Source: a virus
Direction: 5' to 3' (one strand)
Length of the DNA stretch: 22,374 nucleotides
IMG/VR virus record: IMGVR_UViG_3300002916_000005
Span: 1 to 22,374 of that record
The first letter of the stretch is position 1, and each line of letters opens with the position of its first letter. The notes below the pieces were generated by a model, which saw nothing but the letters and a program-made list of their open reading frames with translations, searched no databases and had not been told where the DNA came from. The translations under genes and the position numbers were made by a program. Positions 2,799 through 19,214 of the stretch are shown in pieces.

Positions 2799-3713
2799 TC
2801 ATGCAATTGCCACCTCCTCATAGCATGCAAGGCACGCCATCGCACTATCACAAAGCACGTCAGGCTTATCCCCTCGCACAGGTGGCTTCATCTGGATTTC
2901 CTGATCAGCATTCCGCGCTTTGTAGATCCCACCCATCCCTGACTTTCGCAGAGATCGTTGCTCCAAGATGTCCGAGGTCTGCCGGATCGTTGCCTCCCTC
3001 GCAGGCTCAGGGATCGTCGCTGTATAGTCAGCGGTCACCCGGGCAGTCCCTGATTGTGCAACATTGAAAAGCACTGAGCCTTCGGTGTAGTCCACAGTGT
3101 AGTTCGATGGGCTTGTTGCCGCCCCGTTGACGTACACCGCAGGAGGGATAGGCAGGGGCTGGTTGGGTGTCAGGTGCGCGGCCTGGTTATTAGTGCTTGC
3201 CCAGAAACCCCTGACTGCCTTGTAAAGTTGGTTATTCCCCGTGTTGATCAATTGCTCACCAAAGACAGGGATGTAGAAGGAGACAAAGCAATCCATCTGC
3301 ACAATCGAGACCTTGAGGCTCAGCAGGACCTGCCCGATGCTGAAAGTCAATGCCTCCAATGGGACAATCTCGATGTAGCCATCGCGTTGATTGATGATCG
3401 CATCGGACACGTTGATGCCCAAGAAGAAACCATTGCCATCAGAGAGATTACTCACCTGTATCCGATAGCGATTGACCTTCTGCACGGGCACCGGATACGA
3501 CGGGAACGCTGTCTGCCTTGACTGATCACTCCATTTCTGCTGTATCCACACGTTGTGCGGTTCGAAGCCGCCTATCCCCAAGCGAAACTTCATGCATGTA
3601 TCCACAGCGGACTCAGCGCGTGCAATGAGCCTGCTCAATGCAAGATCATTGATGTCAGTGCCGATACCTTCGTCCAAGTCGCGATATTGAGTTGTCGTCA
3701 AGTATTTAGTCAT
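2799..3713 (-). CDS. Head-tail connector / adaptor protein (gp6-like)
   Basis: The product is about 304 residues from the ATG at 3713 (MTKYLTTTQYRDLDEGIG). An in-frame TTG at 3722 is a less likely start. The N-terminal helical region, with DLALSRLIARAESAVDTCMKFR, is the hallmark of HK97 gp6-type adaptors, which ring the portal and begin with a helix bundle. Unlike a minimal adaptor of about 100 residues, this one continues with long beta-rich parts: IQVSNLSDGNGFFLGI, QVLLSLKVSIVQMDCFVSFYIPVFGEQ, and YTVDYTEGSVLFNV followed by TARVTADYTATIPE. The last part resembles the beta segment of phage proteins that describe a value range and fill-in strands. The C-terminal helix (ARQTSDILEQRSLRK-like) contains charged residues. 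The gene lies two genes after the capsid-associated protein. Confidence 0.65.
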   Translation of the reverse strand: MTKYLTTTQYRDLDEGIGTDINDLALSRLIARAESAVDTCMKFRLGIGGFEPHNVWIQQKWSDQSRQTAFPSYPVPVQKVNRYRIQVSNLSDGNGFFLGINVSDAIINQRDGYIEIVPLEALTFSIGQVLLSLKVSIVQMDCFVSFYIPVFGEQLINTGNNQLYKAVRGFWASTNNQAAHLTPNQPLPIPPAVYVNGAATSPSNYTVDYTEGSVLFNVAQSGTARVTADYTATIPEPAREATIRQTSDILEQRSLRKSGMGGIYKARNADQEIQMKPPVRGDKPDVLCDSAMACLACYEEVAIA

Positions 3714-3725
3714 AACGAACAAATC

Positions 3726-4235
3726 TCATGCAGAACGGTCATGATAGCTGATAGTGTAGTCCCCGGGCGTGCCCGACAAGGTATAAAACAGGCCACGGTT
3801 GCACCGCACCTCATACTCACGGCCTAGATCCCCTGCCACTGGCTTAATCACTGCAATCGCTGTCCCAGCGGGGCTTGCACTGGGATGACCGTCGTAGAGT
3901 GTGACCGTAACTGTTGTTCCAGGATCATTGACCACAAAGTTGCCAAGATCGACGGTCCTCTGTGAGCTGATCGTGTAGGCACCAGAGTGACCATTCACAA
4001 AGTCAGCAGTGAACGTCGTTGCAGTCACTGTTTTTACCACGACATCCTCTGCCGTCCCTGTCCCCCCTGCAAAGTTGAGCCATCGTCCAACCGTGATATT
4101 TGCCATGGAAGCAGGGGTCACAACGCGGTCAGCGCCTGCCGTGATTGTCGTTGGTGCTGTCGTTGCGACGTTGTTGCCAACGGGCACCCCTGTCCCTGTG
4201 GCAGTGATATGTAGAGGTCTATACTGGCAATCCAT
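3726..4235 (-). CDS. Beta-module phage structural protein, paralogous module with neighbour
   Basis: The product is about 169 residues. Start ATG 4235 was preferred over the GTG at 4238, since AGAGGT lies five bases upstream. The N-terminal half carries a beta module with the pattern TPASMANITVGRWLNFAGG, VVVKTVTATTFTADFVNGHS. The same module occurs in the upstream gene (TPAAMTNIVVG..., TATTFTATFANTHS). The C-terminal half has NDPGTTVTVTLYDGHPSA and GLFYTLSGTPGDYTISYHD, a second beta domain. Modules of this kind occur in capsid decoration, baseplate and tail proteins of phages, where they are exchanged as cassettes. The gene sits between the capsid gene block and the adaptor, so a role on the head or at the neck is likely. 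The exact function is unknown. Confidence 0.65.
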   Translation of the reverse strand: MDCQYRPLHITATGTGVPVGNNVATTAPTTITAGADRVVTPASMANITVGRWLNFAGGTGTAEDVVVKTVTATTFTADFVNGHSGAYTISSQRTVDLGNFVVNDPGTTVTVTLYDGHPSASPAGTAIAVIKPVAGDLGREYEVRCNRGLFYTLSGTPGDYTISYHDRSA

Positions 4236-4244
4236 CACGCACCT

Positions 4245-4946
4245 CTATCCCGCAAAGCCCCTGCCTTGCGCAAAGACAAGATCAAGTTGCACGGTAACGG
4301 CTGGGCTTGCAAGGCCCGTTGCATTGCTGCTCACGCGCTTGAAGGTCAGGATATCCCCTGACAAGATCGGGTTGGCGGTGTACTGCGTTGCGATCTGCCG
4401 TGGAGTCAGTGCTGTCTCGGTCACAGGGGCGCTGCTATAGGCAACACTTGCCAGTGGTGCGGAAACAACATTCCACGTGCTCGAGTGGGTATTTGCAAAG
4501 GTAGCGGTGAACGTCGTTGCCGTCACAGCGGTTACAATGACCGTCTCAGCGCTGGCACCGGTATCAACGAGCAGGGCAGTGCCAACGACGATGTTAGTCA
4601 TTGCCGCCGGTGTGATTACGACTACGCCCGGAGCAGCTACCGCCGTGGGTGTCGTCGTATTGACCAGCAACGCCCCTGCCCGCTTGTGCAGAACCTGCCA
4701 CGTAAAGAAGTTCGTTGCTGCCCCGGTCAAGTTGGCCTCAGTTGTCCAGATGGCAAGCCTTGTCCGCAGCGCATTCATTGGCAGTCCCCCTGCGCGGCCC
4801 GACTGTGCAAGCTTGGTCAGATCAGGGACAACGAACAGTATGCCTTCATAGTCCGTCGCTGACCCCGCTGTAGCGCTGGCGAAACGCACTGAAGGACCAA
4901 TGGGCAAATCCCTGTTAAGTCCTAGAAATTCATTGAGAAGGGCCAC
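4245..4946 (-). CDS. Probable capsid decoration / head-associated protein with inserted beta module
   Basis: The product is 233 residues, starting at a GTG (4946) with AGGGGG ribosome site; the preceding gene's stop lies three bases upstream. The N-terminal and C-terminal parts appear to form one beta domain: FTWQVLHKRAGALLVN at about residues 80-96, and ATQYTANPILSGDILTFKRVSSNATG with PAVTVQLDLVFAQ near the end. Between them, about residues 98-165, lies an Ala/Thr/Val-rich beta module (VITPAAMTNIVVGTALLVD, VTATTFTATFANTHS) shared with the next gene. The second domain pattern (SGD.LTF.....TG...P..TVQL) is common in head decoration or fibre proteins. Its location two genes after the capsid gene supports that, but there is no diagnostic motif. 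Confidence 0.6.
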   Translation of the reverse strand: MALLNEFLGLNRDLPIGPSVRFASATAGSATDYEGILFVVPDLTKLAQSGRAGGLPMNALRTRLAIWTTEANLTGAATNFFTWQVLHKRAGALLVNTTTPTAVAAPGVVVITPAAMTNIVVGTALLVDTGASAETVIVTAVTATTFTATFANTHSSTWNVVSAPLASVAYSSAPVTETALTPRQIATQYTANPILSGDILTFKRVSSNATGLASPAVTVQLDLVFAQGRGFAG

Positions 4947-5514: not shown

Positions 5515-6432
5515 TTAGCTAGCCAATCGGCGAACTTTTGTATTGAATGAGGGGGCTGCTATTTCAAGCCCGTACATACCGAAAATTATCCACCTGGAAG
5601 ATAATACATTATCGACGGCAGAAGGCAATTGCAGTATCGTGAAGCTCTCGGAGTATAGCCACGGAATAGCAATGTGCTCATCGTCAACAATGTAGATGTC
5701 TTCAACGAGAGCATTATCGGAGGTTCGGTTATAGGTACCGCCTGTGGAACCTGGAAACGGAATGAGCATGATCTCACCGTCAGCATAGGTCACTGCGGTA
5801 ACGCGCGTGCCTGGGATGAGATCCGCCAAACGCTCTTGATAGCGAACGTTGCTCATCTGCTCATCGTCAAAGGACTGCTTGGAGTTGAAAGACAGGAATG
5901 CGAGCTTGGGATTGCCTCCATTGTTGGCTGCCTGGGTGGCACCAAATCGCAGGGACTCGGTCATATTGAGCGAGCTAATATCAACCTGTGTCGCACCGTT
6001 CCCTGAGAAAGAGCCCTGGCTTCCCAGGACACCACGAAAACCATCGATCCCATTGGCGTTGTAAACACCTTTCTCAGTGGCAGCACCGGCTCCCGATGAG
6101 TTCGATGCATTTCCTTGCAAGATGAAGTATTGCAGGTCCTGCGCTAATTTCACCATTCCGTTACTCATCTCTGTAAGCTCCGGGGAGTAGGCAGGAGGGG
6201 AACCACCGGCAGAAACGGCAGCGATCTCTTTGAAGGTCACACCGCGACCCGTGGCAAAGACGCCGATCGGGAAGGTCAGCTTGTCATATGCACCCGTAGT
6301 GTAGGAAACGGTGCCAGTCTCACTGATAAGCGTTGAACCCGCCGATCCGCTGTCAGGCGAAGTTACACGTGTTGCCTGGTGAAGTAAGCCATTGCTCTGT
6401 TTCTTCGTAAGTCTCTCCCAGACGGGAAAGCG
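5515..6432 (-). CDS. Major capsid protein, exon 2 (C-terminal part)
   Basis: This is the second exon of the split major capsid gene: about 305 residues and a TAA stop. The first residues, RFPVWERLTKKQSNGLLHQA, followed by a beta strand region with FATGRGVTFKEIAAV, then TEMSNGMVKLAQDLQYFILQGN, are typical of HK97-fold capsid proteins, with an elongated loop, spine helix and peripheral domain. Later parts include FLSFNSKQSFDDEQMSNVRYQ, GEIMLIPFPGSTGGTYN and the C-terminal strand ending in SFNTKVRRLAS. The frame remains open far upstream, to 7233, but that region is antisense to the endonuclease gene and has no capsid character. I placed the exon start at CGC (6432) because the intron pairing model ends with G at 6433. 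The joined protein is about 404 residues, a normal size for this family. Confidence 0.85.
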   Translation of the reverse strand, partial: RFPVWERLTKKQSNGLLHQATRVTSPDSGSAGSTLISETGTVSYTTGAYDKLTFPIGVFATGRGVTFKEIAAVSAGGSPPAYSPELTEMSNGMVKLAQDLQYFILQGNASNSSGAGAATEKGVYNANGIDGFRGVLGSQGSFSGNGATQVDISSLNMTESLRFGATQAANNGGNPKLAFLSFNSKQSFDDEQMSNVRYQERLADLIPGTRVTAVTYADGEIMLIPFPGSTGGTYNRTSDNALVEDIYIVDDEHIAIPWLYSESFTILQLPSAVDNVLSSRWIIFGMYGLEIAAPSFNTKVRRLAS

Positions 6433-6499
6433 CTTAATGAAGATTGCGTGCTTTTTGTTACTCGTGCATCTAGCACGGGAACCGTCATTTCTGCGGTTC

Positions 6500-6519
6500 T
6501 CTTGCAGTTCCCTGCAAGA
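6500..6519 (-). other. Intron P9 hairpin with GNRA tetraloop
   Basis: A perfect 8-bp inverted repeat (TCTTGCAG and CTGCAAGA) encloses the four-base loop GGAA. A GNRA loop on P9 is a common tertiary-contact element in group I ribozymes. It lies directly after the 3' strand of P7, as expected. Two smaller hairpins follow before the predicted 3' splice site. Confidence 0.8.
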
Positions 6520-6538
6520 TCGGACTATGGAATCATCC

Positions 6539-6567
6539 TGGACTGTAAAGCTGAGTTGTGCTATAAT
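6539..6567 (+). promoter_or_regulatory. Candidate sigma-70 promoter for the intron HNH gene
   Basis: A perfect TATAAT at 6562-6567 is preceded, with a 17-base spacer, by TGGACT at 6539-6544, which matches four of six bases of the -35 consensus. It points toward the endonuclease gene on the plus strand, about 100 bases before its ATG. The -35 region overlaps the 3' strand of intron helix P8, so the same bases may serve an RNA helix on one strand and a promoter on the other. Motif match only. Confidence 0.45.
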
Positions 6568-6666
6568 AAAGAGGGCTAGAAGTTGCCTGATCAGCGGCTT
6601 GACAAGCGGTCTTCCGATCCGCGCCCCAAGAGAAATCGGAACAACACTATCGGAGGTGTTTTTCTT

Positions 6667-7455
6667 ATGGGAACTTTTGGCAAACCAACCCGTGATTGGT
6701 CTACTATCCTCACCAAGGATTTCCTCTTTCAAGCGTATTGCGTCGAAGGACGCCACATTCTTTCTATTGCTCGTCAAGTTGGATGTCGCAATGATACCGT
6801 TGTTAATGCATTGAAACAGCACGGGTTGAATAAGTGGCGACCTAATAAAGAATGGATGATTGAACATTATGTTGAACAGCAAGAAACCATCGATGAAATC
6901 ACTGAATTTCTGGGATGTACTGAACAGAACGTCCGCGCTTACCTGAGAAGCTTCGACATCCCCATTCGATACAAATCCCGTGGAAGCATTCGCCTCGCCA
7001 TTCTGCATGATCGTGATTGGCTGTACAACAAATATGTTGTTCAACAACTCTCTACGGTAGAAATTGCCGATGAGCTTGAATGCGCTGGCAGCAGTGTTCA
7101 GCAAGCCATGAAACGTCATGGCATTCCCATGAGGAAGGGCGGAACTTCCGGTCCTCCCAGAAAACGTTACACTGCTCGCCGTGCTTTCTCTCAACGCAAA
7201 CGCCGCCTTATCCATAAACGTGACAATCATCAATGTTGTTGGTGTGGATCTAGAGACAATCTAGATATTCACCATATCGTTCCTTGTCGTAAGGGAGGAA
7301 CGAACAATCTCGACAACGGGATCACCCTCTGTGAACCTTGCCATCTCAAAACTTTTGGCAAGGAAGAAGAGCTTATCCCCTTCTTCCAAAATCTGCTTGT
7401 TAATCCAGGAGCCGCTCGCTTAGTCTCTACGCCTCTGCAAATGAAGATGTTTTGA
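6667..7455 (+). CDS. HNH homing endonuclease with tandem helix-turn-helix repeats (intron-encoded)
   Basis: The product is 262 residues, the only convincing plus-strand gene. GGAGGTG lies eight bases before the ATG at 6667. Residues about 10-165 hold three similar helix-turn-helix-like units: HILSIARQVGCRNDTVVNAL, TIDEITEFLGCTEQNVRAYL and STVEIADELECAGSSVQQAM, each preceded by a (D/E)W-containing helix. A basic linker leads to an HNH domain at about 180-230: a CCWC zinc knuckle, then LDIHHIVPCRKGGTNNLDN and LCEPCH. These give the paired Cys ligands, the HH catalytic pair and the Asn of HNH nucleases. The reaction is double- or single-strand cleavage of an intronless capsid gene, leading to intron transfer. 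It lies in the P8 loop but antisense to the host gene, and its last codons overlap the ribozyme core. Confidence 0.9.
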   Translation: MGTFGKPTRDWSTILTKDFLFQAYCVEGRHILSIARQVGCRNDTVVNALKQHGLNKWRPNKEWMIEHYVEQQETIDEITEFLGCTEQNVRAYLRSFDIPIRYKSRGSIRLAILHDRDWLYNKYVVQQLSTVEIADELECAGSSVQQAMKRHGIPMRKGGTSGPPRKRYTARRAFSQRKRRLIHKRDNHQCCWCGSRDNLDIHHIVPCRKGGTNNLDNGITLCEPCHLKTFGKEEELIPFFQNLLVNPGAARLVSTPLQMKMF

Positions 7456-7573
7456 TCTGTCTATTGCAGTTAGCTCGGCGTTATCCACTGCCCTCGTCGG
7501 AGGCGTTGGGATGTTCACCGAATTCAGAGCGGTTATTCGATAGCCATTACTGGCTAAAGCCTCCACGTTTGAA

Positions 7574-7870
7574 AAGGATTGGCTCAAGATCTTGGCGCAA
7601 CAACGCGTTGCCCGTGGTGCTTCCAGTGGTGTCTAAGATACCTTTGACGCTTGCGGGGACCATCGGGGAAGTCTGCATCTCTCCAAGGATCTTGGAGGTC
7701 ATGTTCCCCTCATCGCGAAGTGGCGCGCTGTTGTTGATGGTGTTCTTGAGTAGTTGTTTCAGCTCAGGCTCGGTCATTCTCAGACATTCGTTGATCTGCC
7801 TTTGACGATCCTGGGCATACTTTGGAGTAGCAGGATGCTGTATCTCCGTGAATAATGTATCTGAGGGCAC
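7574..7870 (-). CDS. Major capsid protein, exon 1 (N-terminal part)
   Basis: The first 99 residues of the capsid protein. The start is taken as GTG at 7870, six bases after an AAGGAGG site; in-frame codons further upstream (to 7936) lack a ribosome site. The N-terminal arm (about residues 1-60) is charged and helical, with TEPELKQLLKNTINNSAPLR, as is common for the delta or scaffold-like domain that HK97-type proteases remove. The segment TTGSTTGNALLRQDLEPIL then leads into the capsid fold and is interrupted by the intron after CTT (7574). Without splicing the frame would read on for only eight more codons (FKRGGFSQ, counted after the splice site as TTC onward) and stop at 7547, leaving a useless 107-residue product. 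A promoter lies about 190 bases upstream. Confidence 0.8.
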
Positions 7871-17218: not shown

Positions 17219-17857
17219 TCAAGAGTTGGTTTCATCGAAAGAATCGCTGTCCTCTTCGTCCTCCCATGGCTCATCATTGCCATCATCGCCAAATTCAACG
17301 TCAATCCCTGGGCCCTCATCGCCTTCCGTTGGTTCCTCATCGATCTCCTCGACTTTGCGGCGCGGGTCGGTGCCTCTTCCCCAGAAGGTTTCAACCACCA
17401 CGTCCATCTCGACCTTGCCGCCATCCTTGCCAGTCAAGGCAAGTTGCTCAGTGGCTGCCCCGCGTGCAATGCGTTCAATGTCCGTGGCGAACTTCAAGAG
17501 TTGCACGGTGGCTGCTGCCCCAAAGTCTCCCATAGTGATAAGCCTCTGTATTTGCTCAAGTGCATTCTTCTGTTGCGTTATACCAATTTGCGCATGGCGA
17601 TCATTCATCTGCTCTACTTGCAACTCTCGTGCCCTGCGCTTCTTCTCAAGTTGTTCTGCATCATATGCCCGTGCACGTCCCTGCCAGTCAAACTTCGTTG
17701 ACCACTCTTTGAGCCATCGAAGCCCCACCGTGATTCCGTCGACTTCCATCTTTGAAAGCTTAAGCAGGCTGCGATCTTCACCCATTCCCATGTAAGCGTC
17801 ACAGAAAAGCCTCGCCTTCGATGACTCTTCAGTGTGTTTCAATGGTTGCTCAGACAT
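17219..17857 (-). CDS. terS: Terminase small subunit
   Basis: A 212-residue protein from the ATG at 17857 (MSEQPLKHTEESSKARLFCD), overlapping the methyltransferase stop by eight bases. The region LKEWSTKFDWQGRARAYDAE (about residues 52-71) matches a pattern in small terminase subunits of phages of Gram-positive and other hosts, followed by a long helical segment and TDIERIARGAATEQLAL at about 135-151, typical of the oligomerisation and portal- or TerL-contact region. The final 50 residues are strongly acidic, with many Glu and Asp. Small subunits recognise the packaging site on phage DNA and stimulate the large subunit. Position directly before terL supports the call. Confidence 0.8.
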   Translation of the reverse strand: MSEQPLKHTEESSKARLFCDAYMGMGEDRSLLKLSKMEVDGITVGLRWLKEWSTKFDWQGRARAYDAEQLEKKRRARELQVEQMNDRHAQIGITQQKNALEQIQRLITMGDFGAAATVQLLKFATDIERIARGAATEQLALTGKDGGKVEMDVVVETFWGRGTDPRRKVEEIDEEPTEGDEGPGIDVEFGDDGNDEPWEDEEDSDSFDETNS

Positions 17858-19214
17858 GCGCTGCGTCCTCAATGCGGTCTAGGAGTTGGGCTTGTTGGCC
17901 TGTGTGTTGCTCCCAACGAGCTACGATGATATCAATGTATTCAGGAGATAACTCGCAGCCTATCACGGTCCTCCCTGTATTCTCTGCTGCAATAATACTC
18001 ATACCGCTGCCAAGAAACGGATCAAAGATGATATCACCCTCTTGACCGTATTTCTCGAAACACCATTCTGCAAGCTTTACAGGTTTCTGTGATGGGTGAA
18101 CTCTCTTCTGCCCATGCTCACTATCTTTGAGCATTCCATTCCACATATGCTTGAATATACGCACTGCGCTGTCATCGCTACACCATGCTAATTCAGCGTC
18201 GGCAAAGTTACCCGTGTTTTCCTTGTCCCACACAATCCAGCAAGAAGAGGGTGGCAGCGCATTAGCATAGTAATTGGCACCCCACCAAACTTGCAGAGCA
18301 TTGGGAAAAGATTCAAAGCAAAGCATGGAAGAGGCAATGGCTGTATTGGTACTATCATCGCCAACAATGGGGGCGTACTTCCCTGCTTCCACGACGTTCG
18401 AGGCACCGACGGTGCCTCGAACGGACTTGCTCCCAAAGGGCTTGGAACCCCCAACAGTTCCAAGCCCTTTGGGAGCAAGTCCGTTCTTCTTCTCTTGCCA
18501 CTCCTCAAGATATGACTTGCCTGTCTTACGCATGTGGGAGGCACCGCCTCCCACATCGCCTTTAGTGGCAACGATATCAATGCCATACGGAGGGTCTGAC
18601 CAGACATATGCTATTTGATTAGTGCCTACAAGTTTCTTGACAGCATTGATATCACAGCTATTAATACATGCAATAGTGTGCCTACCCAGCTTCCACACAT
18701 CCCCCAACTTTACCCGTGTCTGTTCCTCATCCGGCTCCCCATCAAAATCCTCATCGCATTCACTGTCATCATCGTCATCCAATGCATCGCCAAGGCTTTC
18801 CAGGAGTTGCCTCAATGACTCCTCATCGGTGCCCATGCTCTCCAAGGAAAACCCTGCATCGACCTGGGATTGCAGGAGGGCTGCGAGCGCATGTTCGTCG
18901 TCTTGAGCAGATTGGGCATGCAAGTTGTCTGCGACCATGATAGCTTCAATTGTCGATGCGGGGGTATTAACGGGAAGGACCTCAACACGGACCTCAGTGG
19001 CACCCTCGCGTCTCATTGCCTCAACGAAACCATGGCCTGCCACCATGAGATAGCCTTGACCATCGGGGACTGCAACGACACTGCGAAATTGCCCAAATCT
19101 ACGGTATGAGGCACAAAGATTACTAATTTGCTCCTCTGGATGCACCCGGTAGTTCCTGGGATGTGCCTTGAGTAAGTCAATGGATACAGTGCGATTTTCA
19201 ATGCCCGTGATCAT
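17850..19214 (-). CDS. ParB-domain / DNA adenine-type methyltransferase fusion
   Basis: A 454-residue protein. Residues 1-100 form a ParB-like N-terminal domain: ISNLCASYRRFGQFRSVV, then YLMVAGHGFVEAMRREGA (the usual GHxR box has Phe instead of Arg). Residues about 115-165 are acidic and probably a linker. The methyltransferase follows: motif IV is DPPYGI at about 207-212 and the SAM-binding FLGSG lies near 398-402, in the order IV then I, the beta class, which normally makes N6-methyladenine (DPPY rather than SPPY). The stretch between residues 219 and 273 carries three hairpin-forming DNA repeats and little conserved sequence. Phage methyltransferases protect DNA from host restriction. AAGGAAG lies seven bases before the ATG and a promoter is about 50 bases upstream. 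Confidence 0.88.
   Translation of the reverse strand: MITGIENRTVSIDLLKAHPRNYRVHPEEQISNLCASYRRFGQFRSVVAVPDGQGYLMVAGHGFVEAMRREGATEVRVEVLPVNTPASTIEAIMVADNLHAQSAQDDEHALAALLQSQVDAGFSLESMGTDEESLRQLLESLGDALDDDDDSECDEDFDGEPDEEQTRVKLGDVWKLGRHTIACINSCDINAVKKLVGTNQIAYVWSDPPYGIDIVATKGDVGGGASHMRKTGKSYLEEWQEKKNGLAPKGLGTVGGSKPFGSKSVRGTVGASNVVEAGKYAPIVGDDSTNTAIASSMLCFESFPNALQVWWGANYYANALPPSSCWIVWDKENTGNFADAELAWCSDDSAVRIFKHMWNGMLKDSEHGQKRVHPSQKPVKLAEWCFEKYGQEGDIIFDPFLGSGMSIIAAENTGRTVIGCELSPEYIDIIVARWEQHTGQQAQLLDRIEDAAHV
18395..18423 (-). repeat. Perfect hairpin within the methyltransferase gene (14-bp arms)
   Basis: CGTTCGAGGCACCG at 18395-18408, one central A, and its complement at 18410-18423. All 14 bases of the arms pair. 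The right arm overlaps the first five bases of the larger hairpin that follows. On the coding strand this covers the codons for residues around RGTVGASNV. The reading frame stays open across it. Confidence 0.95.
18419..18486 (-). repeat. Perfect 30-bp inverted repeat within the methyltransferase gene
   Basis: Left arm 18419-18448 and right arm 18457-18486 are exact complements over 30 bases, with an eight-base loop (CCCCAACA). It codes on the minus strand for the residues GLAPKGLGTVGGSKPFGSKS. A hairpin this stable inside a coding region is rare and is not explained by the methyltransferase fold. Confidence 0.97.
18532..18556 (-). repeat. Perfect hairpin within the methyltransferase gene (11-bp arms)
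   Basis: ATGTGGGAGGC at 18532-18542 pairs with GCCTCCCACAT at 18546-18556, with a three-base loop. It lies about 45 bases from the larger hairpin and codes for part of GDVGGGASHM, just after the DPPY motif. It shares no sequence with the other two hairpins, so the set is not a simple tandem repeat. Confidence 0.95.

Follow-up and report, generated by a model that had tools for sequence, protein, structure and literature searches.

An antisense HNH endonuclease gene in a group I intron of a phage capsid gene overlaps the predicted ribozyme core

Homing endonuclease genes (HEGs) that run antisense to their introns are documented in nuclear rDNA, as I-DirII in Didymium iridis S956-2 and I-DsqI in D. 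squamulosum L2066 (PMC9548176, PMC3679873). According to the accessible excerpts of these two sources, the Didymium genes lie opposite to the ribozyme strand, as does the gene described here, and are expressed in vivo from their own (proposed internal) promoter. Unlike the phage locus, the systems in those excerpts are eukaryotic rDNA introns with His-Cys box enzymes, made from a pol II mRNA with a spliceosomal intron and poly(A), and in D. squamulosum P9 holds the inserted gene; the excerpts report no overlap with catalytic core sequence. Such overlap is described on the sense strand as ‘core creep’, for I-TevI in T4 td, Synechococcus lividus LSU and B. thuringiensis nrdF (PMC3073962). As in our case, those ORFs extend into the P6/P7/P3/P8 core and are under dual constraint, but they are on the ribozyme's own strand, whereas the gene reported here is antisense. 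For sense-strand intron endonucleases, translation through the folding ribozyme must be prevented (T4 td/I-TevI, PMC2988022). SPO1/Twort-type introns resemble our locus in belonging to phages, in interrupting protein genes and, for SPO1, in carrying an HNH gene in P8 (PMC3984707, PMC3073962 Table 1, PMC11878797); the sources searched, among them two on bacterial and phage introns (PMC3984707, PMC11878797), mention no antisense case. Finally, CfrI of cyanophage S-PM2 is likewise an antisense RNA of a phage, one that connects a homing endonuclease gene with psbA, but it is noncoding, ~225 nt long and antisense to the endonuclease gene, which is itself free-standing (PMC2984593). In the open-access literature we found no report that combines an antisense HEG with core overlap, nor of any antisense case in a phage, although absence from that literature is not proof of novelty.

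The window analysed here is a 22,374-nt stretch of viral DNA. Its minus strand carries a capsid gene in two exons, separated by an intron:

7574..7870, minus strand: exon 1 of an SU10-type major capsid gene (spliced ORF, SU10_MCP Pfam match, intronless homologues L003 and L004)
5515..6450, minus strand: exon 2 of the major capsid gene
6451..7573, minus strand: group I intron of 1123 nt, with omega-G at 6451 as its last base (RF00028; empty sites in L003 and L004)
7560..7567, minus strand: internal guide sequence CGUGGAGG (sequence and junction)

L003 and L004 each encode an uninterrupted SU10-type capsid relative, reading LEPIL|HSIFVKRFPVWER at the position of the window's intron. Because these intronless genes read through the site, we placed the end of exon 1 at 7574 and the start of exon 2 at 6450. 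The insertion is exact relative to the intronless alleles, and the capsid frame is restored. At the other end of exon 1, homology to the intronless genes begins at ATG 7777, and GTG 7870 is a possible start codon. The guide sequence pairs with CCUU|CACG over the junction, with exon 1 CCUU forming P1 and exon 2 CACG forming P10. The pair at the intron's 5′ splice site is U.G, as is usual for group I introns, and the terminal base of the intron is G 6451. RF00028 matched 7583-6501 on the minus strand in a full-length alignment, with 26.7 bits (E 2.3e-4) against a gathering score of 50 bits; a low score is expected because P8 contains an insert of ~860 nt. We conclude that the identity of minus-strand 7573-6451 as a group I intron is confirmed at the sequence level, and we predict that it is self-splicing.

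The core and peripheral helices that bear on the argument are these:

7532-7527/7417-7412, minus strand: P3, whose 3′ strand (7412..7417) is the complement of codons A249-R251
7469-7464/7440-7435, minus strand: P6, whose 5′ strand (7464..7469) is outside the endonuclease gene in the window
7435..7440, minus strand: P6 3′ strand, the complement of codons L257-Q258, with two compensatory silent changes in L002
7425-7421/6527-6523, minus strand: P7, whose 5′ strand (7421..7425) is the complement of codons L252-S254 and is the expected guanosine-binding site
7410-7402/6544-6536, minus strand: P8, whose 5′ strand (7402..7410) is the complement of codons N246-G248
6536..6544, minus strand: P8 3′ strand, whose complement contains the -35-like TGGACT
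6463..6518, minus strand: hairpins P9, P9.1 and P9.2, which differ in L002 by compensatory changes

With the P8 insert taken out, RNAfold found P3, P4, P5, P6, P8, P9, P9.1 and P9.2 unaided; the P7 pseudoknot is the one core helix that it does not return. A P3-P8 core with the P7 G-binding helix is present both in the window and in a second phage contig, L002, where RF00028 matched in pieces of 33.2 and 21.4 bits. Differences between the two contigs are compensatory in P2, P6, P9.1 and P9.2.

The P8 loop contains a gene that runs antisense to the intron, preceded by its own expression signals:

6539..6567, plus strand: putative sigma70-type promoter TGGACT-17-TATAAT with extended -10, hexamers and spacing identical in L002
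6653..6658, plus strand: Shine-Dalgarno (S-D) sequence GGAGGT of the endonuclease gene, conserved
6667..7455, plus strand: HTH-HNH homing endonuclease gene, 262 aa (PF01844 2.3e-07, phrog_8446 1.9e-41; dN/dS 0.10)

The initial annotation had described an HNH gene antisense to its intron, and this is borne out by a plus-strand ORF lying within a minus-strand intron whose boundaries are fixed by L003 and L004. Its stated range was 6536-7455; the end at 7455 stands, but the gene proper starts at ATG 6667. The stop codon (TGA, 7453-7455) is in the P6 loop, as claimed for the window, and in L002 it falls three codons further on, in the P6 5′ strand. The predicted protein combines three HTH-like repeats with an HNH domain at the C terminus; the HNH motif and zinc residues are intact (C190, C193, H203, N217, C222, C225 and H226), and the PF01844 match is above the cut-off. 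Over codons 1-245, window and L002 differ at 23, 13 and 79 first, second and third codon positions, and this pattern, together with the dN/dS ratio, shows a gene that evolves as a plus-strand protein gene under purifying selection. The ORF is most likely an HNH homing endonuclease, predicted to cut intronless capsid genes. Upstream of it, TGGACT (6539-6544), a 17-nt spacer and TATAAT (6562-6567) with an extended TG occur exactly and are kept in L002; the putative -35 element is indeed the complement of the other P8 strand, as had been proposed. The S-D sequence is inside a small predicted hairpin (AACACU...GGUGUU; 6620-6666) in both phages, and an S-D in a hairpin is also a feature of other intron-encoded endonuclease mRNAs. 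We rejected a structured leader, since its 97 nt are no better folded than shuffles (z -0.4 and 0.0). I-TevI autorepression was the model for a further idea, a homing-site-like operator in the promoter region, which was rejected because its best local score was no higher than that of shuffled junctions (p 0.32).

The 3′ end of the endonuclease gene and the ribozyme core share the following sequence:

7402..7440, plus strand: codons 246-258, coding sequence complementary to the ribozyme core
7420..7455, plus strand: likely run-on tail, residues ~252-262 and stop, low model confidence

Across codons 246-258, the coding strand is complementary to the P8 5′, P3 3′, P7 5′ and P6 3′ strands. The reported overlap of the gene end with P6, P7, P3 and P8 is therefore real, with its start corrected from 7404 to 7402. 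Related introns without the overlap had been named as evidence against it; the sole related intron found, in L002, has it. Over these 39 nt, window and L002 differ at three positions (7431, 7437 and 7440), all of them silent third positions. Two of the three, 7437 and 7440, fall in the P6 3′ strand, and each is matched by a change on the P6 5′ strand, such that a G-C pair becomes U-A and an A-U pair becomes G-C in L002. These comparisons show overlap bases under two constraints, in which silent codon positions change and the partner helix strand compensates (two P6 pairs). The evidence that both codes are kept, as judged from the two sequences, is direct but small, and the P6 changes document, on a small scale and in nature, how the same bases can satisfy two codes. 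The double constraint proposed in the initial annotation is thus upheld in these substitutions, whereas slower synonymous change is a trend only: 1 of 10 overlap codons has a synonymous change, as compared with 72 of 217 elsewhere (Fisher p 0.17, range 0.17-0.26; n=2 sequences), and we rejected depressed synonymous sites in the overlap as not significant.

L002 has the same intron, insertion site, antisense gene, promoter hexamers, spacing and RBS, an identical architecture at 88% aa identity. Because this arrangement recurs in an independent contig with a synonymously saturated host gene, we reasoned that it is more than chance. Window and L002 are 93% identical in the intron 5′ core, 84% in the endonuclease gene and 63-71% in the exons; dS is 0.74 for the endonuclease gene, whereas the capsid gene is saturated (dS ~2.2). 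Since the intron is more alike than the exons and the gene is far from saturation, intron and gene appear to have been shared after the capsid genes diverged. The sequence divergence hence shows that the intron was shared more recently than the host gene diverged, as expected of a mobile element. No member of this intron beyond the window and L002 was found in the collections searched, core-pattern searches returning L002 only from viral contigs and nothing from genome contigs. L013 was rejected as a third case, its intron being a different one at another site. In that contig (L013:4483-4760), a related capsid gene has a HEG-less group I intron ~95 codons downstream of the insertion site; because this intron differs in kind and site, the capsid gene family has been invaded at least twice independently.

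We consider it very likely that this phage capsid gene harbours a mobile group I intron, with an antisense HNH gene in the P8 loop, its own sigma70-type promoter and core creep in the antisense direction. We infer the following course of transcription, cleavage, homing and splicing, with early timing of endonuclease expression. The host-type promoter would drive early plus-strand transcription and hence synthesis of the endonuclease, which would cut intronless capsid genes, so that repair would copy in the intron and its gene. Late minus-strand transcription would then produce the capsid pre-mRNA, which would be spliced; endonuclease expression would in this way be set apart from late transcription, as the initial annotation supposed. 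Because the gene is antisense, ribosomes on the endonuclease mRNA would not traverse the intron RNA. An opposite-strand gene under a host-type promoter would be a different solution from that of sense-strand endonucleases, one otherwise reported, in the literature covered, only for nuclear rDNA introns. This placement trades ribosome interference for an antisense-RNA problem.

As the initial annotation also suggested, the antisense RNA might act on splicing and might itself be regulatory, with the endonuclease mRNA pairing with the intron core and delaying capsid pre-mRNA splicing until late infection. An mRNA from near 6574 would be complementary to the P8 5′, P3, P7 and P6 strands, and there is no convincing plus-strand terminator immediately 3′ of the gene, the first terminator-like candidate being at 7865, with none in L002. 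However, any antisense gene is automatically complementary, and selection would favour avoidance of self-inhibition; we regard such regulation as quite unlikely. Equally doubtful, in our judgement, is a two-strand dual code in which ribozyme core and antisense codons co-evolve and the antisense mRNA times capsid-gene splicing in infection. An inactive remnant or spurious ORF in an immobile intron would be in keeping with there being only two known copies, but it is very hard to reconcile with a dN/dS of 0.10, the third-position bias, intact catalytic residues and a conserved RBS and promoter, and we think it highly improbable. We give next to no credence to an inverted gene placed inside the intron by misassembly. 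The contigs are metagenomic, but identical junctions are found in two contigs that come from different records at ~79% identity, and helices covary on both sides of the insert; we consider an artefact ruled out by the second contig.

A further alternative concerns the end of the protein. The HNH frame crosses the antisense of P8, P3, P7 and P6 without a stop and ends at the first one, in P6; the other two plus frames have TAG stops inside or just before the overlap. Because a frame that comes in through P8 stays open until P6, the last residues would be dictated by the ribozyme. Relatives L018 and L079, which share the KT-KE-FF tail motif, stop at about residue ~250, and in the structure model pLDDT is <50 for residues 254-262. 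Together these observations suggest a disordered run-on of ~12 residues at the C terminus, and the antisense gene end fits the core-creep proposal of PMC3073962, which the overlap carries over to the antisense direction. Run-on is not proved, because tail lengths among HNH relatives vary from 6 to 228 residues. The core-complementary tail could instead be a working part of the endonuclease, with the overlap kept for protein reasons. The two phages have the same residues at 246-258, and the changes in 259-262 are all conservative though the P6-loop bases have diverged: codons 259-261 read M-L, K-R and M-L despite six base differences, a hint of some role for the tail. Against this, the ribozyme by itself would predict identity of 246-258, the model shows disorder, and relatives do without the last ~12 residues. 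We consider a functional tail possible but rather unlikely, and favour a run-on.

To place the arrangement among other introns, group I introns were searched for in records with relatives of the HNH protein, and match coordinates indicated an antisense arrangement in L002 only. Among 75 distinct sites with a conserved P7 motif, a sample biased by the motif used, we checked two antisense HEGs near introns, and both were outside the intron; the survey also returned one short antisense ORF with a LAGLIDADG_2 match. The two HEGs, in L128 and L144, were rejected as antisense intron HEGs: because the host-gene S-D and start codon adjoin the ribozyme just outside it, they must lie upstream of exon 1. 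They are free-standing LAGLIDADG and GIY-YIG genes (L128:4406-5743, L144:4105-5337), directed away from a neighbouring gene in which a tiny first exon is followed directly by a group I intron, and are possibly collaborative-homing pairs. The rarity of antisense HEGs asserted in the initial annotation agrees with both the literature and this small survey.

Two other features of the window were observed. The minus frame whose codons lie in register with those of the HNH gene stays open over ~198 codons, in frame with capsid exon 2 (5515-7260 minus in the window, 2843-4594 minus in L002); TTA/CTA/TCA codons occur only twice in the HNH gene, and gene-calling programs may wrongly extend the capsid protein at its N terminus. 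Elsewhere, 17850-19214 on the minus strand encodes a ParB-like nuclease domain fused to an N6/N4 DNA methyltransferase, as judged from PHROG and Pfam matches.
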